Of a stretch of 64,000 nt of DNA, positions 51,415 to 62,865 are shown piece after piece (position 1 is the first letter of the stretch; each line of letters begins with the position of its first letter). A program made the position numbers and the translations under genes. The notes under the pieces are model-generated. The model was not told the origin of the DNA. It did no database searches and saw nothing but the letters and a program-made list of their open reading frames with translations. The stretch spans positions 62,001-126,000 of the forward strand of contig CAJYIW010000004.1 of assembly GCA_913775095.1 (NCBI GenBank). The letters run 5' to 3'. This DNA comes from an uncultured Siphonobacter sp. Its GTDB lineage: Bacteria; Bacteroidota; Bacteroidia; Cytophagales; Spirosomataceae.

Positions 51415-53775
51415 ATGAGCAGATTTAATCCGGTAGTAAAACTTTTACTGGGACTCGTCCTCCTGAATGGAACCGCGTTTGGTCAGTCCCTGACCCCTGA
51501 ACTAACCAACCGGAAAGTGAAGGTTTCACCCGTGGTTCCGATTCGGGCCTATGCCTTTCCTCTCGAACAGGTGGAGTTACTGGAGAGCCCTTTTCGGCAG
51601 GCCATGCAGGCCGACGTTGCTTTTCTGAAAGAACTCGAGCCCGACCGGCTGTTATCCGAATTCCGGAGTCATTCGGGACTCAAGCCGAAAGCCGAAAAGT
51701 ACGGCGGCTGGGAAACTTCGGGGCTGGCGGGACATACCCTTGGGCATTACCTTTCGGCCTGTGCCATGCATTATGCCAGTACGAAAGATCCGGAATACCT
51801 GAAGCGGGTTAACTACATGATTGATGAGCTGGAGGAATGTCAGAAAGCCCGCCAAACGGGTTACATCGGAGCCATTCCCAGGGAAGATACCGTGTTTGCG
51901 GAGGTAGCGAAGGGCGACATCCGCTCCCGGGGCTTTGATCTCAACGGAGCCTGGTCGCCGTGGTACACGGTGCATAAAGTCATGGCGGGCCTGCTCGATG
52001 CCCACCTCTATGCTGATAATAAAAAAGCACTTGCCCTCAATGTACGGATGGCCCACTGGGTGGGAGAAACCCTGAAAAATCTGACGGACGAGCAGATCCA
52101 GAAAATGTTGCTGTGCGAATACGGAGGCATGAATGAGCTACTGGTTAATACGTACGCCCTGACCAAAAACAAAAAATTTCTGGATTTATCGTATAAGTTC
52201 CACGACCGCTGGATTCTGGATTCACTGGCTCATCACAAGGACATTCTACCCGGCAAGCACTCCAATACGCAGATTCCCAAGCTCATCGGTACCATTCGCC
52301 GGTATGAATTAACGGGGAATCAGGCCGACTACGAAAGTGCCTCGTTTTTCTGGAATACCGTCGTATCTCATCACTCCTACGCTACGGGCGGCAACAGCAA
52401 TTATGAATACCTGAGTACGCCCGACCAGCTCAGCGAGAAGCTGACGGAAAACACCATGGAGACCTGCAATACCTATAATATGCTGAAGCTCACGCGGCAT
52501 TTGTTCGCCCTCCAACCCTCAGCTCATTACATGGACTATTACGAACGCGGCCTCTACAACCACATTCTGGCCTCTCAAAACCACACCACGGGCATGATGT
52601 GTTACTTCGTGCCGCTGCGAATGGGGGCTAAAAAGCAGTTCAGCAGTCGCTTACACGATTTTACCTGTTGCGTAGGCTCGGGGATGGAAAACCATGTCAA
52701 GTATAACGAAAGTATTTACTTCAAAGGATCGGACGGCAGTCTGTACGTAAACCTGTTCATTCCCTCCAAACTCAACTGGGCTGAAAAAGGGCTGCATCTG
52801 ACGATGGAAACGACGTTACCGGCGGATTCTTCCGTTCGTCTTCTCCTGAACCCTAAAACTCCGGTTTCATTACCCCTCCGAATCCGCAAACCGCACTGGG
52901 CCGGCACCATGGTTGTTTTACTGAACGGTAAACCCCTCACGGACCTGAAGGAAGAGCAGGGTTATCTGGTGGTCCAGCGTACCTGGAAAGCGGGTGATCA
53001 GGTGGAGCTGAGCGTACCGAGTAACCTCTATACGGTCGCTATGCCCGATAACCCCGACCGCAAGGCTTATTTCTACGGTCCCGTCATTCTGGCGGGAAAC
53101 CTCGGCCCCGAAGAAACGGATCCGGCCGTGGGTGTTCCCGTTCTGGTCAGTAACGATTCCAATCCTAACCATTACATCCGGTCCACGGGTAAACCGCTGG
53201 AGTTTCAGACGACTCACCTGGGTAAGCCGGGCACCTTAACCCTGCAACCCTTTTATGCCCTTCAGGATGATCACTACAGCGTATACTGGGATGTGTTCAC
53301 CACCCAAACCTGGCAGCAACAGCAGCAACGCTACGAAGAACAACGCCGGCAGGCCCGTGAACTGGAACTTCGTACGGTTGATAACCTTCGTGTGGGTGAA
53401 ATGCAGCCCGAACGTGACCACGAGTTTTCGGGAGAAAAGCTGGAAACGGGAGAATCGCACACGCGTAAATTCCGGGCAGCTAACGAAGGCGGATTCTTCC
53501 AGTTCACCATGAAAACAGACCCCAGGGCAAAAAACACCCTGATCGCTACCTATTGGGGCATGGACAACCGGGGGCGGCAATTTGATATTCTCGTCGACGG
53601 CAAACCCCTGGCCAGCGAAGATGTGAACAAGTATAAGGAAAGCCGTTTTTATGAAATTCCTTACGAGTTACCGCAGGAATTAACCAAAGGGAAAAGTTCC
53701 GTTCTGATCAGGTTTCAGGCGAAAAAAGGCAATCAGGCGGGGCCCGTGTACGGGCTTCGGATGCTGAAAGAGTAA
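51415..53775 (+). CDS. GH127 beta-L-arabinofuranosidase-like protein (DUF1680)
   Basis: 786-residue exported glycoside hydrolase. Signal peptide ends near GTAFGQ. The alpha/alpha barrel domain covers about 45-500: GGWETSGLAGHTLGHYLSACAMHYA near 97, then SPWYTVHKVMAGLLDA, GMNELLVNTYALT. The GH127 metal/catalytic residues can be placed by their spacing in HypBA1: E349 and C351 in NTMETCNTYNMLKL and the C418-C419 pair in HDFTCCVGSGMENH. C-terminal beta-sandwich domains follow. It should release L-arabinofuranose residues from plant or hydroxyproline-linked glycans. The sugar acid dehydrogenase at 61333-62865 could act further along an arabinose route, but other sugar genes are lacking here. Confidence 0.93.
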   Translation: MSRFNPVVKLLLGLVLLNGTAFGQSLTPELTNRKVKVSPVVPIRAYAFPLEQVELLESPFRQAMQADVAFLKELEPDRLLSEFRSHSGLKPKAEKYGGWETSGLAGHTLGHYLSACAMHYASTKDPEYLKRVNYMIDELEECQKARQTGYIGAIPREDTVFAEVAKGDIRSRGFDLNGAWSPWYTVHKVMAGLLDAHLYADNKKALALNVRMAHWVGETLKNLTDEQIQKMLLCEYGGMNELLVNTYALTKNKKFLDLSYKFHDRWILDSLAHHKDILPGKHSNTQIPKLIGTIRRYELTGNQADYESASFFWNTVVSHHSYATGGNSNYEYLSTPDQLSEKLTENTMETCNTYNMLKLTRHLFALQPSAHYMDYYERGLYNHILASQNHTTGMMCYFVPLRMGAKKQFSSRLHDFTCCVGSGMENHVKYNESIYFKGSDGSLYVNLFIPSKLNWAEKGLHLTMETTLPADSSVRLLLNPKTPVSLPLRIRKPHWAGTMVVLLNGKPLTDLKEEQGYLVVQRTWKAGDQVELSVPSNLYTVAMPDNPDRKAYFYGPVILAGNLGPEETDPAVGVPVLVSNDSNPNHYIRSTGKPLEFQTTHLGKPGTLTLQPFYALQDDHYSVYWDVFTTQTWQQQQQRYEEQRRQARELELRTVDNLRVGEMQPERDHEFSGEKLETGESHTRKFRAANEGGFFQFTMKTDPRAKNTLIATYWGMDNRGRQFDILVDGKPLASEDVNKYKESRFYEIPYELPQELTKGKSSVLIRFQAKKGNQAGPVYGLRMLKE

Positions 53776-55561: not shown

Positions 55562-56215
55562 TCAAACCGTCCAGAGCTTATGACGGATGGCATACACCAC
55601 GAGACTAACGGAATTATTTGCTCCGGTTTTTTCCAGAAGATTCTTACGGTGGCCTTCCACCGTGCGGTAGCTGATGAACAGGCGTTCGGCTATTTCGGCG
55701 GTGTTTAAGCCCTGGCACAGCAGTTCGAGCACTTCCATTTCCCGGCCCGTCAGAAGCCCCTCGCCTGCGGTTTTTTTTGCCGATTCTTCCGGCTGCTGAA
55801 GTCCCTGACGCAGGGCCTGAGCCGTGTCGTCATTCATGTAATAGCCCCGCGTGCTGACATCCTCGATGGCCTGTACAAGGGTATTGCGGTCAATATCCTT
55901 GGGTAAATAGCCGTGAACGCCGACCCGCATGAGCTTCATGATGTGCTCCTGAGAGTAGCTCATGGACAGAATAATGATTTTAATCTCGGGGTATTCCTTC
56001 AGAATGATCCGGCTGATTTCCTCGCCGTCCATGCCTTTCATGTGCAAATCCAGCAGGATGACATCGACGGGATTCGAGGGTAACTGATCAAATAATTCCT
56101 TTGCGCTACTGGCTTGCAGCGTGATTTCGTACTGCGGAAACTTCTTTAAAATCTGGGCGATGCCTAATCGGAATAGCTGATGATCATCGACCAGAGCAAG
56201 TCTGCGATTTTCCAT
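55562..56215 (-). CDS. NarL-family response regulator
   Basis: 217-residue response regulator. Receiver domain (1-120): LALVDDHQLFRLGIAQIL with the acidic pair D10 D11, DVILLDLHMKGMDGEEI with the phosphoacceptor D56, and GYLPKD with the conserved Lys. C-terminal LuxR-type helix-turn-helix (LTGREMEVLELLCQGLNTAEIAERLFISYRTVEGHRKNLLEKTG). All key residues are present, unlike the regulator at 44206. The kinase gene ends 19 bases upstream, so this is its cognate partner. Start placed at MENRRLA rather than 14 codons upstream because the receiver begins there and this removes an overlap with the kinase gene. Confidence 0.92.
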   Translation of the reverse strand: MENRRLALVDDHQLFRLGIAQILKKFPQYEITLQASSAKELFDQLPSNPVDVILLDLHMKGMDGEEISRIILKEYPEIKIIILSMSYSQEHIMKLMRVGVHGYLPKDIDRNTLVQAIEDVSTRGYYMNDDTAQALRQGLQQPEESAKKTAGEGLLTGREMEVLELLCQGLNTAEIAERLFISYRTVEGHRKNLLEKTGANNSVSLVVYAIRHKLWTV

Positions 56216-56234
56216 ACGGTCTGAATAGTAAGCC

Positions 56235-57020
56235 TTACAAAGGCACAAGCATTTCAATACGGGTTCCGGCTCCCGGAGCGGAATCCATCGTGAGCCGGGC
56301 GTTCAAAAAGCTGGCCCGGGCCCGGATTCCACTCAGTCCAATTCCGGTTGCGGGCGAGTCTTTCGGGTTATCAAAACCCTTGCCGTCGTCCTCGATCCAG
56401 AGCCGGAGAAATCCGGGCTGCTGGGTTAATTCGAGGGTGACCCGCCGGGCTTCGGCGTGTTTGATGATGTTTACGGATACTTCCTGCACGACGCGATACA
56501 AAGCCAGTTGCTGCTCCCGGTTCAGCATTTTTTCTTCCAGGGAAAAGTGGTGCTCAATCACCAGTCCGTTCACTTCCAGTTGCTGAAACAGGGTTCTCAG
56601 GGCTCCGGTAAAGCCGAGTTTTTCAACCACCAGTGGCGAAAGGTGATGCGACACCCGGCGGACTTCCTGCACCAGTGTTCCCAGCACGCCGTGGGCCTGA
56701 TCGGCCAGTTCAATCATATCCGGCAGGGTTTCCTCGTACTGGATCTGATTGATAAACAACCGGGCTGCGGATAGCGAAGCTCCGACTTCGTCGTGCAAAT
56801 CCTGAGCAATGCGTTCGCGTTCGTTCTCCTGAGCCTGCACGATGCCCTCCGTGATTTCCTTCTGGTGACGAATTTCCAGCTGGTGCATCTCCCGTTGCTG
56901 CCGGAAAAATTTACGCTGGTAAAAGACCACGAAGATTACCACCATCAAGGTTAACAGAAGCATAAAGCCTAAGCCAGCCAGTATTAAATAAGCAAACGTT
57001 CCTTCCTGGGGAGCTTCCAT
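56235..57020 (-). CDS. Sensor histidine kinase (HisKA_3 type)
   Basis: 261-residue kinase of the NarX/DesK group. One transmembrane helix (residues about 10-34: YLILAGLGFMLLLTLMVVIFVVF) at the N-terminus with almost no outside part, a coiled-coil linker (about 38-66), then the dimerisation domain with phosphorylated H76 (RIAQDLHDEVGASLSAARL). The HATPase domain has the N-box residue N184 (VVQEVSVNIIKHAEA), G1 DDGKGFD (211-217) and G2 GIGLSGIRAR (226-235). It lacks its own sensor domain, so the adjoining seven-helix protein, whose gene overlaps it by 37 bases, is a plausible input partner. Confidence 0.9.
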   Translation of the reverse strand: MEAPQEGTFAYLILAGLGFMLLLTLMVVIFVVFYQRKFFRQQREMHQLEIRHQKEITEGIVQAQENERERIAQDLHDEVGASLSAARLFINQIQYEETLPDMIELADQAHGVLGTLVQEVRRVSHHLSPLVVEKLGFTGALRTLFQQLEVNGLVIEHHFSLEEKMLNREQQLALYRVVQEVSVNIIKHAEARRVTLELTQQPGFLRLWIEDDGKGFDNPKDSPATGIGLSGIRARASFLNARLTMDSAPGAGTRIEMLVPL

Positions 57021-57664
57021 AGGGCAATCGAGTAAGCCACGTATAACAAAAAGTTCACTGCCGCATGCACTACCCAGAACGATTGGTTAAATCCCTGAGA
57101 ATACCGCCGGGCGAAATTGGCGAATATATACAGGATGATCGTGCTGGAAAAATAAATGAGTAATCCACCAGAAACCCAGAAAGCGGGTTCCCGATGGATA
57201 TGAGGCGTCTTGATTTCGCTGAATGATTTAAGAAAATAAGCACTCACCAGGGCGATTACAATTCCCCCCTCAATGATTCTGCTTAACCCATCAATTACAT
57301 CGTGATTAATGAAGTCCTGAAACGAGTGGAATGAGAAATACTTGCTGCAAACGGCGAAGGCTAGTAAAAGTATCAGCCAAATTCGAGCCTTGTCCAGCCA
57401 GGTCGATTTCAGCATCAAACTGTACATCCAGATAAATAAGCTTCCTTCAAGGGTGATGTAAATAGGATAGAGAAACAGATTCGTCATCTTCCTATGCCAT
57501 AAAAAATCTGAATAAGCCTGGGTAATAAAGGCAAGAAACTGAATGTAACACAACACTTTCGTCCAACCCTCAGCTCGTCTGAATCGAATAACCGCAATGA
57601 TACCAGCAATCCAGGTTGGTATTACTAATATCGAAAGCATAATCTGTTGTACTGAATACTGCAT
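56984..57664 (-). CDS. Seven-helix membrane protein upstream of the kinase
   Basis: 226-residue integral membrane protein. Seven hydrophobic segments can be counted (about 9-26, 37-56, 63-85, 94-110, 127-145, 162-184, 196-216) with basic loops, giving a 7TM topology. I do not recognise the family. Its gene overlaps the kinase gene by 37 bases, which argues for translational coupling. A role as the sensor that feeds a single-helix kinase is the simplest inference, but direct evidence is lacking. The 57678-58352 gene lies just upstream, 13 bases away. Confidence 0.75.
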   Translation of the reverse strand: MQYSVQQIMLSILVIPTWIAGIIAVIRFRRAEGWTKVLCYIQFLAFITQAYSDFLWHRKMTNLFLYPIYITLEGSLFIWMYSLMLKSTWLDKARIWLILLLAFAVCSKYFSFHSFQDFINHDVIDGLSRIIEGGIVIALVSAYFLKSFSEIKTPHIHREPAFWVSGGLLIYFSSTIILYIFANFARRYSQGFNQSFWVVHAAVNFLLYVAYSIALWKLPRKERLLI

Positions 57665-57677
57665 GGGAAAAATCCGA

Positions 57678-58352
57678 TTAACAGGTAGGCGGACAGGGAC
57701 TCGCTAAATCAAAATACCCATCGTCATCATCATCGTCGTCCTTTAGTTTCTGAAGATCAGTCTGGGCGTGCAGGAGGAGTCCGAAGGTATAGACGGGAGG
57801 CTGGCCTTCCTGGTACGTGACGGGTAAATGTTCGTGAAGGACAAAATTGATTCGAACATCGTTTGCCTTCCGATCCAGCAGCAGAGCCTCCATGAATTCA
57901 TCCATTTCGTAGTTGTACCCCTTCAGAAACCCGCGGGATACCTGAAAATTCTGAACCCCGATTTCATTATCATTCGCCCGGGTCAGCCAGTAATACCTCC
58001 ATTGCTTTTCCAGCTCCATCGGCACCCGCCCCCCGTTGGACTTACCCGGACGCGGGTGATAGATTGGATCTTTGGCTACGTAATAAGGGCTTACCCGCTG
58101 CCCCGTCTCATCTACGCCCCAGAGAATCAGCCAAAAGGAAGTTTCTTCCGTTGAGAATCCAAACCTGATTTTGATGGTACTCGTACCGGGCGTGGAAAGC
58201 AGATACTCCAGCGTTTTCTGGTTGAGAACTACTCCGGTCTGGATGCGATCGGAGTCGGCAAAGAATGGGAAAGTAGTCGTTTCAAATTCAAGGGACTTCC
58301 AGTCGGAAGTCAGGGTTTTAAATACCTCTTCGGTGATGGTGTGGACAGTCAT
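57678..58352 (-). CDS. Unrecognised Asp-rich protein ending in CPPTC
   Basis: 224-residue protein with no signal peptide or membrane helix. The bulk is soluble and beta-rich, with PYYVAKDPIYHPRPGKSNGG near 89-108. The C-terminal tail is odd: seven consecutive Asp (205-211), then GYFDLASPCPPTC to the end, so the last five residues hold two Cys around a Pro-Pro-Thr turn. This resembles a tail that could be processed, cross-linked or metal-bound. First gene of the four-gene cluster with the 7TM protein, kinase and regulator. No family recognised, so no function is claimed. The Asp run is encoded by a short trinucleotide tract (about 57719-57743). Confidence 0.75.
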   Translation of the reverse strand: MTVHTITEEVFKTLTSDWKSLEFETTTFPFFADSDRIQTGVVLNQKTLEYLLSTPGTSTIKIRFGFSTEETSFWLILWGVDETGQRVSPYYVAKDPIYHPRPGKSNGGRVPMELEKQWRYYWLTRANDNEIGVQNFQVSRGFLKGYNYEMDEFMEALLLDRKANDVRINFVLHEHLPVTYQEGQPPVYTFGLLLHAQTDLQKLKDDDDDDDGYFDLASPCPPTC

Positions 58353-58541: not shown

Positions 58542-61289
58542 TTACCTGGTCGCCGGAGTCAGTTCTATTTCCACTGCGTTTTTCGTCAGGGGAATCACAA
58601 AGGCTTCCCGTTCCTGAGCAAAGGTCTGCGTAGGTTTATAGAGATTCGGATGCTGCTGAGCAGGATATTCCAGTCGAAGGTAAGCCCTTGGGGTGACTTC
58701 GGAAGCAGACCCTAAGGTAATTTTAACCGCTTTAGTTACGGGATTATAGCTCACCCGTTCCATCTGTCCGGCATCCAGACTGATTTGAAGTCCAATGGGC
58801 GAAAGATACACACTTGACCGGGCCGCTGTGCTGGGTTTGAGTATCACTTCATTCCCCTGCTGACTAACGTTACCACCAAAGCTCAACCAGCCGAATTCGG
58901 GATGTTGCGTTAAGTACGAGGTGGTGTTCACGGCATAACCGAAGAATCCACAGCCATAATCGCCCGATAAGGCATCGATTTCCAGCGTCGAAGGATAGGA
59001 ATGGAAAGCTGCCGGTCCGAATCCATCTTCGGTGATGTTGGCAATGGCTCCCATCAGGCCCCCGTAGCCCACGCGTAGCAGATAAAAATCATCCGGCTGA
59101 CTGCGATACGCCATCAGGACTGGGATGGCATTAAGTCCCGAACCATAGTGGTGAATCTGCCGCTCCACGCGGGACAACTTGCCACCGTATAAAAAGTCCC
59201 AGTAGCGGCGGGCGTTGCCGTTGTAAGCCCAGTGCGGAAGCGTCGGCATATACCCCAGAATGGCATTCAGGGTTACTTCGGCTTTATCCCGATACCCAAA
59301 GTAATACGACCAGACGTAAACCTCCTCCTGCCCCGTGGAATCCCAGGGCATTTCACTACCAAAGGGGTACTCCAGCGAACGCCAGAGATCGGCCCGTTTT
59401 TTCATGGTGCTCTCCAGTTCGGTAGCCAGATCCGTTAACCCTTCCCGCTTTAAATCCGTTAGAATGAGGTAGAAGATCGTTCCTTCCATCTGCCCGAACT
59501 GGGCATAATACGGAGCAAACTTCATCATGGCCAGGGCCGTCTGAGCCGCGTGTTCGAGGTAACTTTTCCAGTTTCCCTGTTTGACGAGGTTCTGATGATT
59601 TCGCTGCAGGCGGTATAATACCCAGTGAGCCGCCGCCACGTGCGGATAGTTATACGAACGTCCCAGTGACTCCGCTTCCTTACGGGGCCAGGCCGACCAG
59701 CTTTTGTAGTTCACCGTTGGGCTATAAGTATGAGCGGGCATGGAGTCTGGCTGGTAATAGAACAGACTTTTCCGAATGCCGTATTGATACGGACCTTCCT
59801 TGTGCTGAATGTTGCCCCAGAGGGTTTCATTCACAAACCGTTCCAGCTTCTGTACTTCTTCCGGTTGGGGTAACACGAGTTGTTTCATGGTTGCTCCGAG
59901 CCAGCTTCCCGCTCCGCCTTCATCGCTCAGCCCCGCCACCCAGGCCCGGCTGTCCTGCGTTACCTGCTGTTTGGTTTCGTAATCGTAGCTAATGACAGAA
60001 GGGCTACGATGAAAGGTATCTTTAGGTACTTCAAACCATTGCTTTGTCGTCAGGAAATTGCCAAAATCGGCGATGGTTTCGCTTTCGGGTTTGATGATTT
60101 TGTAATGAATCGTTTGTTTCAATCCATCCTGATACTGAATGGTTAAGCGGGCACGTCCCCATTTTTTTCCCCGAATCAGGTAACTCTGCAGATTCTTTTT
60201 TGGGGAGGGAATCGCCTGCCAGCTGAGAGCATCGGCCGGCTCTACTTGCATCGACTTTACTTTTCCTGAATGTTGCAGGAAAAGCCTGGCTTCCACATTC
60301 TGCGGTACCACATAGCCCGGAATGCCTACCGCAACCGGACGTTTGTGAGCAATCAGGGTTTTTTCAATCTCCCGAATGCCGGGAGCCAGTACCAGTTTCA
60401 GTCCATACGTTTTCGTTTCGCCGGGTTTCAGCGTAACGGAAGTAGCCGTGTTCCAGGGCTGAGCTTTCGCCCAGTCTTTCTCCGCGTGGGCTTTACTGTG
60501 AATCATCCATTCGTGAAATCCTTCAAAGACGATGCCCCGCGGCGTGGGGTCATCCAGCAAAGGATTATATGCCTCAAAGGGCGTATTCCCCTCGGGTAAA
60601 ACCAGCAGGACGGGTCCTTTGCCGTGCAGTCGGGCCACCTGTAGGTATCCGGCATCCGCTCCGATGTAGGGATCAAAAAAGACGTTTCGGGCGTGGGCCT
60701 GCTCAAGAGTATTTCCTTCCAGAATGTTATTAAAAATCAGCGGAATGCCTAGTGAACCTATTTCAATCGCTTCTTTGCCAGGATTGCTGATCCGGAATTT
60801 CAGGATGATTCCGCCCTGGGTCTGTTCCCAGGAACGCTGAACATTCAGGGGAAAATCAGCCGGAAAGCTGGGCGAAAGATTCGCCAGGGCCCAGACTTTG
60901 CCAGATTTGGGGGCTAATGCTTCTACGTCTGAACGTTTGGTGGCCGAAGAAAAGGACTTCCATTCCTCCCCTACTTTCAGCCGGAAGTTAATGTCTCCGA
61001 GCTGATACAGTCCGTCACCGCTTCGCACCTTGAGTCGGTCTCCCGGCGTGTAATCGAAGCTTTTCTCAGTCACTGGCGAGAGGCTTGCCACGGTTTGGGA
61101 AGACTTCACCAGTTTCAACTCCAGCTCGGGGGAAGTGAAGGTCTGAAATCCTCGCTCCAGATGAAGCGTGGACGGTTTTTCCTCCAGCTTTTTCCAGGGC
61201 GACTGCTGGGACCAGCCCGCCTGAGCCATCGTCAATAGCCCGGCGATCAGCAGACCCCGGTACTTGTTCAGGTACGTAGAAGTAGTCAT
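58542..61289 (-). CDS. Large exported protein (DUF5695-like, possible carbohydrate-active)
   Basis: 915-residue protein with a signal peptide (MTTSTYLNKYRGLLIAGLLTMAQAGWSQ). An N-terminal beta-rich part (to about 420) is followed by a helical part with many aromatic and Gly residues (SRAWVAGLSDEGGAGSWLGATMKQ; YFGYRDKAEVTLNAILGYMPTLPHWAYNGNARRYWDFLYGG in pieces; HHYGSGLNAIPVLMAYR). The pattern resembles an alpha/alpha toroid, as in glycoside hydrolases, and fits DUF5695-type proteins, but I cannot name catalytic residues. Start moved 21 codons in so the signal peptide is N-terminal and overlap with the dehydrogenase gene is avoided. Third gene of the minus-strand operon. Confidence 0.7.
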   Translation of the reverse strand: MTTSTYLNKYRGLLIAGLLTMAQAGWSQQSPWKKLEEKPSTLHLERGFQTFTSPELELKLVKSSQTVASLSPVTEKSFDYTPGDRLKVRSGDGLYQLGDINFRLKVGEEWKSFSSATKRSDVEALAPKSGKVWALANLSPSFPADFPLNVQRSWEQTQGGIILKFRISNPGKEAIEIGSLGIPLIFNNILEGNTLEQAHARNVFFDPYIGADAGYLQVARLHGKGPVLLVLPEGNTPFEAYNPLLDDPTPRGIVFEGFHEWMIHSKAHAEKDWAKAQPWNTATSVTLKPGETKTYGLKLVLAPGIREIEKTLIAHKRPVAVGIPGYVVPQNVEARLFLQHSGKVKSMQVEPADALSWQAIPSPKKNLQSYLIRGKKWGRARLTIQYQDGLKQTIHYKIIKPESETIADFGNFLTTKQWFEVPKDTFHRSPSVISYDYETKQQVTQDSRAWVAGLSDEGGAGSWLGATMKQLVLPQPEEVQKLERFVNETLWGNIQHKEGPYQYGIRKSLFYYQPDSMPAHTYSPTVNYKSWSAWPRKEAESLGRSYNYPHVAAAHWVLYRLQRNHQNLVKQGNWKSYLEHAAQTALAMMKFAPYYAQFGQMEGTIFYLILTDLKREGLTDLATELESTMKKRADLWRSLEYPFGSEMPWDSTGQEEVYVWSYYFGYRDKAEVTLNAILGYMPTLPHWAYNGNARRYWDFLYGGKLSRVERQIHHYGSGLNAIPVLMAYRSQPDDFYLLRVGYGGLMGAIANITEDGFGPAAFHSYPSTLEIDALSGDYGCGFFGYAVNTTSYLTQHPEFGWLSFGGNVSQQGNEVILKPSTAARSSVYLSPIGLQISLDAGQMERVSYNPVTKAVKITLGSASEVTPRAYLRLEYPAQQHPNLYKPTQTFAQEREAFVIPLTKNAVEIELTPATR

Positions 61290-61332
61290 AGAAGAGAAAT
61301 CGTCCGGGTAAGTATGACCCGGACGACCGTTT

Positions 61333-62865
61333 TTATTGTTGGAAGACGCCATCCACCAGACGGAAAATGCCGAGCGGATTACTGTCCTTTAATTCATCGG
61401 GTAAGAGTCCCTGCGGAAAGCCCTGGTAACACACCGGACGGACAAAGCGTTTGATGGCATTCGTACCCACGGAAGTGCTCCGGGAATCCGTTGTAGCGGG
61501 GTAAGGACCGCCGTGCTGCATGGCGTGACTTACTTCAACACCCGTGGGGAAGGCATTGATAATCAGTCGGCCTACTTTCTGTTCCAGCTCGGATAATAAC
61601 TCAGCATTGGCCAGTAACTCCTCCTCAGTGCCAAACACCGTAGCCGTCAGGTGGCCTTCCAGCGAACGGGCTACCTGGAGTAACTCTTCACTGTTTTCCG
61701 CCTGAACAATCACGCTACTCGGACCAAACACTTCGTGAGCCAGCAAAGGATTGGCCAGCAAAGCCGTTACCGAACTTTTCAATAATACCGGACGACCCGC
61801 CGCGAAGCCTTCCAGCTCCTGAGCTTCGGCAATAACCTCTACGTTCTCCTGCTCTTTTAATTTGGTAATACCCTGAGCAAAAGCCTTTTGAATGCCCTGC
61901 GTTAACATGGCCGTGGGCGAAAGCGTCGCCAGTGATTCCCGGGCAGTCTGGATAAACGCCTGCGAATCTTCCGAAGCGGGCAGAATGCTGATGCCGGGAT
62001 TGGTGCAGAATTGTCCCGTTCCCAGTGTTAAGGAAGATACATAATTCTGAGCTAACGCCGCTCCCTGCTGTTTCAGGATCTGGGGTAAGAAGAAGACTGG
62101 GTTCGTACTGCCCATTTCGGCGTACACCGGAATGGGCTCGGGACGTTGATTGGCCGCATCGAACAGAGCTTTACCGCCCTGAAATGATCCTGTAAAGCCA
62201 ATGGCTTTGATGGAAGGATGACGAACCAGGTCCAGCCCGGTGGCCGTGGTGCGACCCTGAATCAACTGGAAGGTGTCTTTCGGAACGCCCGTTATTTCAA
62301 TTGCTTTCCGAATGGCCTGGGCCACCAGTTCAGACGTGCCGGGATGGGCAGGATGGGCCTTTACCACCACGGGGCAACCCGCAGCCAGAGCTGAAGCCGT
62401 ATCGCCACCCGCTACTGAAAACGCCAGGGGAAAGTTACTGGCCCCGAAAATACCTACCGGACCGAGGGGCCGCAGCATTTGCCGCAAATCAGGACGTGGC
62501 AAAGGCTGACGCTCGGGCAGAGCCGGATCAATGCGGGCTTCTACCCAGGAACCCTCCCGCAGGTAACTGGCAAACAGGCGTAACTGTCCCGTAGTACGGC
62601 CTCTTTCTCCCGTCAGACGGGCCAGCGGTAAAGCTGTTTCGGCATGGGCCCGTTGCAGGAGTTCATCGCCCAATGCTTCGATCTGACGGGCCATTTCTTC
62701 TAAAAAATCAGCTTTGGCTGACCCGGAAAGCAATCGGTATTCGGCAAAAGCCTGGGCCGCCCGAAGTCCGGCTTCGTTTATTTCCTGAGACGTAGATTCC
62801 TGAAAAACACCCGGTAAAGATTCGCCCGTAGCGGGATTAATGGCTTGAAAATCAGATTCATTCAT
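61333..62865 (-). CDS. 2,5-dioxovalerate (alpha-ketoglutaric semialdehyde) dehydrogenase-like enzyme
   Basis: 510-residue NADP-type aldehyde dehydrogenase of the group that oxidises 2,5-dioxovalerate to 2-oxoglutarate in pentose, glucarate or hydroxyproline breakdown. Features: GPVGIFGASNFPLAFSVAGGDTASALAAGCPVVVKAHPAHPGTSE near residue 135-180 (cofactor-binding, NFPLAFS signature of this group), IGFTGSFQGGKALFDAA near 220, EMGSTNPVFF near 250 (the Glu), and LTLGTGQFCTNPG near 285 with catalytic Cys. It starts 12 bases after the DUF885 gene stop and 43 bases before the next gene. A role in arabinose oxidation would fit the GH127 enzyme in this window, but is inference. Confidence 0.9.
   Translation of the reverse strand: MNESDFQAINPATGESLPGVFQESTSQEINEAGLRAAQAFAEYRLLSGSAKADFLEEMARQIEALGDELLQRAHAETALPLARLTGERGRTTGQLRLFASYLREGSWVEARIDPALPERQPLPRPDLRQMLRPLGPVGIFGASNFPLAFSVAGGDTASALAAGCPVVVKAHPAHPGTSELVAQAIRKAIEITGVPKDTFQLIQGRTTATGLDLVRHPSIKAIGFTGSFQGGKALFDAANQRPEPIPVYAEMGSTNPVFFLPQILKQQGAALAQNYVSSLTLGTGQFCTNPGISILPASEDSQAFIQTARESLATLSPTAMLTQGIQKAFAQGITKLKEQENVEVIAEAQELEGFAAGRPVLLKSSVTALLANPLLAHEVFGPSSVIVQAENSEELLQVARSLEGHLTATVFGTEEELLANAELLSELEQKVGRLIINAFPTGVEVSHAMQHGGPYPATTDSRSTSVGTNAIKRFVRPVCYQGFPQGLLPDELKDSNPLGIFRLVDGVFQQ

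Follow-up and report, generated by a model that had tools for sequence, protein, structure and literature searches.

Analysis of a 64,000-nucleotide stretch of DNA from an uncultured Siphonobacter sp. (contig CAJYIW010000004.1, positions 62,001 to 126,000; hereafter the window) revealed four adjacent genes on the minus strand, between positions 55562 and 58352, which on sequence grounds encode a two-component system with a HisKA_3 histidine kinase and a NarL/LuxR-type response regulator. The two genes ahead of the kinase encode a small protein (SM) and a seven-transmembrane (7TM) protein. Comparison with other Bacteroidota leads us to propose, with moderate confidence, that the sensor of this system is split: SM and 7TM would form the input unit, and the 7TM protein would be a receptor that switches a separate kinase with a single membrane helix. 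The basis of this proposal was obtained by computation and consists of the conserved gene order, the close pairing of the SM and 7TM genes, the exchange of the kinase beside them, the fold and topology of the 7TM protein and the conserved tail of SM; what we infer is the binding of SM to 7TM, a lateral coupling within the membrane and the sign of the effect. The elements of the module are as follows.

57678–58352, minus strand: SM (P0001), 224 aa, two core domains and a C-terminal PCPPTC tail, no signal peptide
58053–58352, minus strand: first core domain of SM, about residues 1–100 (family profile match at 6–88 and elements of the AlphaFold model)
57741–58019, minus strand: second core domain of SM, about residues 112–204 (profile match at 110–224, tail included, and elements of the AlphaFold model)
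57720–57740, minus strand: run of seven Asp codons of SM, residues 205–211, kept only among close relatives
57681–57698, minus strand: PCPPTC tail of SM, the most conserved element of the family; P0001 ends in SPCPPTC
56984–57664, minus strand: 7TM receptor-like protein (P0002), 226 aa, oriented by the positive-inside rule with the N-terminus outside and the C-terminus inside
56235–57020, minus strand: histidine kinase (P0003), 261 aa, one transmembrane helix, HisKA_3 and HATPase_c
55562–56215, minus strand: NarL/LuxR-type response regulator (P0004), 217 aa if read from the ATG and 231 aa if read from the TTG at 56257

The positions of the four genes agree with the initial annotation, as do the 13 bases between the genes of P0001 and P0002 and the 37 bases that the P0003 gene shares with the 7TM gene. 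P0003 has a single hydrophobic stretch at about residues 9–34 (by eye), followed by HisKA_3 and HATPase_c (Pfam, above cut-off), which fits the earlier description of a one-helix kinase. P0004 carries Response_reg and GerE domains (Pfam, above cut-off), and the reading frames of relatives fit the 217-aa version starting from the ATG at 56215 rather than the listed TTG at 56257. The seven Asp residues and the terminal CPPTC reported for P0001 were likewise found, at residues 205–211 and in the SPCPPTC end. The two records that P0001 retrieved are both Siphonobacter, and they encode proteins with about 70–96% identity to those in and around the module. The 7TM search found one credible copy in the window's genome; a second match (E 0.95) was rejected as weak, sitting in a different membrane protein of 523 aa.

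The gene order is conserved far beyond Siphonobacter. With P0002 as query, matches were found in 24 of 59 genomes of relatives, and at these loci a HisKA_3 kinase lies downstream in nearly all cases and a NarL-type regulator mostly, with a short open reading frame (ORF) upstream that mostly ends in a CPxxC or PP tail. P0001 as query matched only 4 of the 59 genomes because the SM family diverges fast. A profile of the 7TM family detected members in 149 of 291 genomes sampled from the order (E <= 0.001), 130 of 396 from the class (E <= 1e-4) and 58 of 296 from the phylum, 8 of the latter outside the class, the three samples overlapping one another. Regions around 7TM genes were fetched in sets of 80, 20 (long), 20 (more distant), 12 (chosen by SM) and 20 (later). 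The gene order was counted over 145 loci other than the window, after setting aside duplicates, the unrelated L120, 15 of the 20 long regions (repeats) and the 20 later regions. Among these loci, which are mostly the best 7TM matches and no random draw, the 7TM gene is followed by a kinase in 136/142 and a regulator after the kinase in 119/142 (sum over sets). An SM gene was recognised upstream in 130 of the 143 with room for one, a figure that is not independent since the SM profile was trained on ORFs from that position. SM upstream and kinase downstream occur together in 125/140. By set, SM and kinase were found in 28/29 and 27/27 of the first relatives (P0001 and P0002 queries), 75/79 and 79/80 of the set of 80, 4/4 and 4/4 of the long regions, and 9/11 and 10/11 of the SM-chosen set. 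Thus the order SM-7TM-kinase-regulator, which the initial annotation had proposed to look for in other Cytophagales, recurs across the phylum. Homologues lying far from kinases in most genomes, which it had named as speaking against a module, are not what the counts show: the 7TM genes mostly lie beside kinases.

A better test of the pairing than the locus count is a genome-wide search for SM. When 146 genomes were searched with a single-domain SM profile, 34 of them yielded a total of 47 rows, two of which come from one ORF. Thirty-four rows lie on the same strand as, and no more than 351 bases from, a listed 7TM row, one is a second copy in L091, and the 12 others were fetched as regions, 11 of which have SM directly adjoining a 7TM gene. 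In the twelfth, L162 (G088), an IS4/5-type transposase gene (PF13340, PF01609; L162:1803-2672) separates the two, apparently an insertion into an otherwise normal module. Hence none of the 47 rows in the 146 genomes was away from a 7TM gene, apart from the transposase between the two in one case, in a search that is not exhaustive, the profile having missed the window's own two-domain SM. The idea put forward earlier, that a sensor is split over genes for a receptor, a kinase and a signal or accessory protein, thereby gains support from comparative genomics (136/142, 130/143 and 0/47). The alternative it had offered, that SM and 7TM are unrelated neighbours of an ordinary kinase-regulator pair, is contradicted by the counts and by an arrangement kept in different classes of the phylum; small gaps between genes are commonplace and four 7TM loci (L090, L145, L147 and L152) have no kinase found, but we regard this explanation as extremely unlikely.

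Three classes of kinase occur beside the SM-7TM pair, HisKA_3 being one of them. PAS plus HATPase_c kinases accompany the pair in L139, L140 and L146 (the last a hybrid), with HisKA detected in L139 and L146; L161 has a HisKA kinase without PAS, L141 and L143 have PAS plus HisKA_3 kinases, and L155 and L167 have LytS-type His_kinase proteins with LytTR regulators. Each of these alternative kinases has one N-terminal hydrophobic stretch (by eye). The SM-7TM pair is constant while the kinase class varies, and therefore the pair acts in the way expected of an input unit. Among the matches listed in the order, class and phylum 7TM searches, none joins 7TM and kinase in one protein; the longest open frame there (432 aa, L119, G265) was considered as a fusion and appears to be an upstream read-through. 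Against NCBIfam, P0003 matched MctS best (3.6e-39), far below that model's cut-off.

This exchange bears on another explanation, in which the 7TM protein would be an inhibitor of the LiaF type, detecting envelope stress itself and keeping the kinase inactive, with SM as an accessory and not a ligand. The order of membrane protein, HisKA_3 kinase and NarL-type regulator matches liaF-liaS-liaR, and P0003 matches the LiaS model at 6.7e-24, though far below its cut-off. In Streptococcus pyogenes LiaS is inhibited by LiaF, according to an excerpt of PMC7492735. But the LiaF Pfam families were matched by neither P0002 nor the 114 family members at E <= 0.01, the seven helices are predicted to have an arrangement like that of G protein-coupled receptors (GPCRs), and the 7TM protein comes as a pair with SM and stands beside other kinase classes too. 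We consider the LiaF-like explanation unlikely.

The 7TM family has no credible assignment: scans of P0002 and its relatives against Pfam and NCBIfam gave only scattered single-member matches. Pfam showed no sequence kinship to GPCR families among 114 members, and the membrane part matched neither 7TMR-DISM nor other named bacterial 7TM or LytS input families in Pfam. PDB sequence profiles gave nothing credible for SM or 7TM, the best for 7TM being an SMR transporter (E 0.12) and a rhodopsin (E 0.19). The model of P0002, from an alignment of 114 rows, has a predicted local distance difference test (pLDDT) score of 93.6 and a predicted template modelling score (pTM) of 0.90. The first four Foldseek rows are microbial rhodopsins, with a top template modelling score (TM-score) of 0.61; most of the top rows overall belong to microbial rhodopsins or GPCRs, and a few to designed helical proteins. 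In a second look, 208 of the 226 residues superposed on a class T GPCR (7xp6_R) with Z 14.0 and a root mean square deviation of 3.4, and 929 of 1000 chains reached Z >= 8, in a structure library that is rich in GPCRs and where helical bundles can reach Z near 13–14. Each of the 50 rows shown represents a receptor of GPCR type, GPR155 or a designed protein with a GPCR-like fold. On the model, P0002 appears to share a GPCR-like helix arrangement over its whole length, and we claim no kinship.

In 113 of the 114 rows Lys and Arg are commoner in the predicted inner loops, which places the N-terminus outside and the C-terminus inside. Partly conserved polar residues (Asn62 in 87%, His67 in 57%, Glu73 in 66%, Glu132 in 46% and His200 in 52% of rows; P0002 itself has Pro at position 67) lie in or near the outer helix halves by the predicted topology and helix order, and would suit an outward pocket. 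The rhodopsin rows raised the idea that the 7TM protein is a rhodopsin-type photoreceptor, standing as a 7TM receptor next to a separate transmembrane transducer kinase, but each of the helix-7 positions 195–212 has Lys in 4 of 114 rows or fewer and the Pfam rhodopsin family was unmatched among the 114 members at E <= 0.01. A photoreceptor is hardly credible here.

SM is likewise unassigned. Pfam and NCBIfam scans of P0001 and relatives gave scattered single-member matches only, so that P0001 remains without a family, as the initial annotation had it. The family consensus is a core followed by a PCPPxC tail, often then xxxSPL(N). In two alignments of 74 and 62 rows, picked from about 120 SMs with the most divergent omitted, the tail Pro residues are conserved in 98–99% and the two Cys in 85–88% of rows. 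Of 100 upstream proteins, 75 have a CPxxC motif among their final 45 residues, compared with a mean of 0.62 in shuffled tails. In 134 SM ORFs, counted with no correction for relatedness, both tail Cys are present in 97, neither in 18, the first only in 13 and the second only in 0, with the tail unrecognisable in 6. The two Cys are kept or lost together beyond expectation, mostly as a pair, and the Pro residues are the element that the family rarely loses. The Asp-rich character stressed earlier turned out to be a local Siphonobacter feature, present as DDSDDDD in the Siphonobacter relative L003 and absent from most other SMs; the conserved element is the PCPPxC tail.

The family profile matched P0001 twice, at residues 6–88 (3e-12) and 110–224 (7.7e-19). 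Structure prediction, which the initial annotation had suggested for this protein, gave a folded two-domain model (AlphaFold, pLDDT 82) with a similar order of elements twice. Two profile matches were also found in 17 of 105 other SM candidates with a domain, at a lenient threshold and some of them weak. As variants, the SMs of L083 and L093 have a second core copy after a CPxxC-type tail. Foldseek found nothing for the P0001 model at E <= 0.001, and this does not show a new fold. The best second-look match, a sliding clamp (Z 5.7), falls in the range of common arrangements, and no kinship was drawn from it. PF18698, a histidine kinase sensor domain, matched 1 of 62 SMs (L059:2161-2469; E 0.0013, 19.5 bits against a cut-off of 27.3); this match below threshold was not accepted and is possibly a distant hint at a sensor fold.

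A conserved C-terminal tail on a small protein that adjoins a membrane protein, a kinase and a LuxR-type regulator could also mean a precursor from which the tail is set free as a pheromone peptide, in the manner of ComQXPA or Agr, with the 7TM protein processing or receiving the peptide. But pheromones diversify, whereas the SM tail is conserved phylum-wide; the SM core is predicted to be folded, the neighbourhood shows no generally conserved gene for modification or export, and the tail of the L083 and L093 proteins is followed by a further copy of the core. We hold a pheromone precursor to be quite improbable.

The location of SM is less clear. No signal peptide was seen in P0001 and there is no room upstream for one. 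By our hydrophobicity rule 23 of 134 SMs are lipoprotein-like (L140 doubtful) and a further 6 show an N-terminal hydrophobic stretch of another kind (that of L052 is internal and probably false), so that signals for export or anchoring are present in about 28 of 134 and absent from about 106, the window's type included. The latter figure would suit a cytoplasmic sensor or regulator, similar to NreA, acting at the inner face of a 7TM-kinase complex, the exported forms being later relocations. But the lipoprotein and anchor signals occur in several families and more than one class with a constant 7TM topology, and the Cys pair suits an oxidising compartment. A cytoplasmic regulator of this kind seems to us improbable.

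Returning to the split sensor, the system might work as follows. The 7TM protein would be the receptor in the inner membrane, the kinase would supply one membrane helix and the catalytic transmitter, and the regulator would be a LuxR-type transcription factor. SM, probably through its PCPPxC tail, would bind the 7TM protein as ligand or co-receptor and control its state, and the 7TM protein would pass the change sideways to the kinase helix, altering the phosphorylation of the regulator. A more specific form of this proposal, which we offer only tentatively, is that of a phylum-wide class of GPCR-like receptors in which the PCPPxC tail of the SM ligand docks in the outer pocket of the 7TM protein and thereby activates the adjacent one-helix kinase, the unit being modular across HisKA_3, HisKA and LytS kinases. 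The membrane side on which SM acts and the sign of the effect of deleting the 7TM gene would tell the split sensor and the other explanations apart.

Several points weigh against the split sensor. The main unexplained one is that the mixed export signals of SM, together with the constant topology of 7TM, leave the face on which SM acts doubtful. The P0002 model had no Foldseek match at E <= 0.001, and to this are added the GPCR-rich library, the choice of loci, the training of the SM profile and the incomplete genome-wide search mentioned with their results. In the more distant set the arrangement drops to 14/20 for SM, 16/20 for the kinase and 11/20 for the regulator. No SM was recognised upstream in 13 of the 143 loci. 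Of these, L151 has a weak profile match, L162 is the locus with the transposase insertion described above, and the SM of L166 belongs to a neighbouring 7TM gene; ten other SM-less loci gave no SM profile match even at E <= 10, though the upstream ORFs of L100, L110 and L158 are core-like by eye. A downstream kinase is missing from 6 of the 142 loci. L141 carries its PAS plus HisKA_3 kinase in an overlapping frame and L167 has the kinase upstream (order kinase, regulator, SM, 7TM), and for the remaining L090, L145, L147 and L152 no kinase was found in the stretch examined.

Variant arrangements were also observed. The kinase-less 7TM genes of L090 (G013), L147 (G784) and L152 (G645) include one, in L090, with SM upstream; in L145 (G872) a response regulator directly follows the 7TM gene and neither SM nor kinase was recognised. 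Two or three tandem 7TM genes stand behind a single SM in L115, L116, L139, L082, L092 and L159. Overall 10 loci have two or three 7TM frames, not all of this type, and the third frame in L021 is doubtful. The order is 7TM-SM-7TM-kinase in L020 (G006) and SM-7TM-SM-7TM-kinase in L143 (G895). In Siphonobacter sp. SORGH_AS_0500 (L003:5692-6534) the 7TM match starts only at P0002 residue 28; the 5′ part of this gene may be shifted or broken, or the assembly wrong.

Comparison with known systems found partial likenesses. In UhpABC a membrane receptor is separate from the UhpB-type kinase and the NarL-type regulator, as proposed here; the match of P0003 to the UhpB model (4.8e-34) does not reach the cut-off of that model. 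The receptor there, UhpC, resembles a transporter, UhpB carries a multi-helix domain of its own, and in contrast to the window module UhpABC is without SM. ComQXPA and Agr combine a small protein, a membrane protein, a kinase and a regulator in one operon; they differ in that the tail diversifies there and is conserved here, where SM is predicted to have a folded core domain. The 7TM protein matches no ComQ- or AgrB-type enzyme family, and among the neighbours, some of which were family-scanned, no other gene is generally conserved. In NreABC the small soluble GAF protein NreA is encoded with a HisKA_3 kinase and a NarL-type regulator, whereas SM gave no match to a GAF model and the present module includes a 7TM protein.

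In LiaFSR and VraTSR a membrane protein is encoded with a HisKA_3 kinase and a NarL-type regulator. That this protein controls the kinase is stated in the excerpt of PMC7492735 cited above, and the present module differs from both in the predicted GPCR-like 7TM protein, the SM gene in front, the exchangeable kinase class and the unmatched LiaF families. Sensory rhodopsin II is a 7TM receptor that signals to a separate transmembrane transducer, HtrII (excerpts of PMC12917780 and PMC3274258), but it is a retinal photoreceptor with a two-helix chemotaxis transducer, unlike the one-helix kinase, the SM and the 7TM family without a conserved helix-7 Lys found here. BtsS, a LytS-type 7TM kinase with an outside N-terminus, has its 7TM input controlling the histidine kinase (excerpt of PMC10653868); receptor and kinase are one protein in BtsS and are encoded by separate genes here among the matches listed. 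No description of the module or of such a bacterial 7TM receptor was found in the titles and abstract openings of open-licence PMC literature.

The SM and 7TM families are new to the libraries searched, while the two-component system itself is of a known kind. Two families with no credible Pfam or NCBIfam match would thus be a common input unit of two-component systems, and the input of many 'sensorless' one-helix kinases in Bacteroidota would be explained. Should signalling from the 7TM protein to a separate kinase prove real, the module would offer a simple and tractable model of a 7TM receptor with a lateral contact, and the co-encoded SM would be a ready candidate ligand that is directly testable.

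No general conserved partner beyond the four genes was found in the neighbourhoods examined, and therefore the module looks self-contained. At a subset of loci, genes for proteins of about 180 aa with a phage-collar domain (PF07484) adjoin the module, at no more than about 2 kb from the 7TM gene, often together with a giant protein (1335–1958 aa in the stretches examined, several cut by the stretch end; the copy in L133 has Ig-like domains). These loci are L172, L177, L178, L187, L188, L133 and L171, and the genomes concerned are G232, G033, G298, G495, G299, G233, G227 and G571. Collar genes occur in 31 of 40 genomes, and 8 of the 31 have one within 2.5 kb of a 7TM match against 0.17 expected pairs, a count that is biased, 6 of the 8 having been known to have such a neighbour before counting. 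In the remaining 25 genomes there are 2 collar-7TM neighbours against 0.15 expected (P ~0.01). No collar gene was matched in the window's genome at E <= 1e-5. The association therefore holds only for a subset of loci, where the collar operon is possibly a target of the module. On the Spirosoma oryzicola plasmid NZ_CP089539.1 the module is followed by three collar genes, and its first two genes are annotated 'hypothetical protein'. In the window, a DUF5695 protein gene (58542–61352, minus strand, 936 aa) lies directly upstream of the module on the same strand and is kept in Siphonobacter relatives, and a gene for a GH127-type protein with beta-L-arabinofuranosidase domains (51415–53775, plus strand) converges towards it from the other side.

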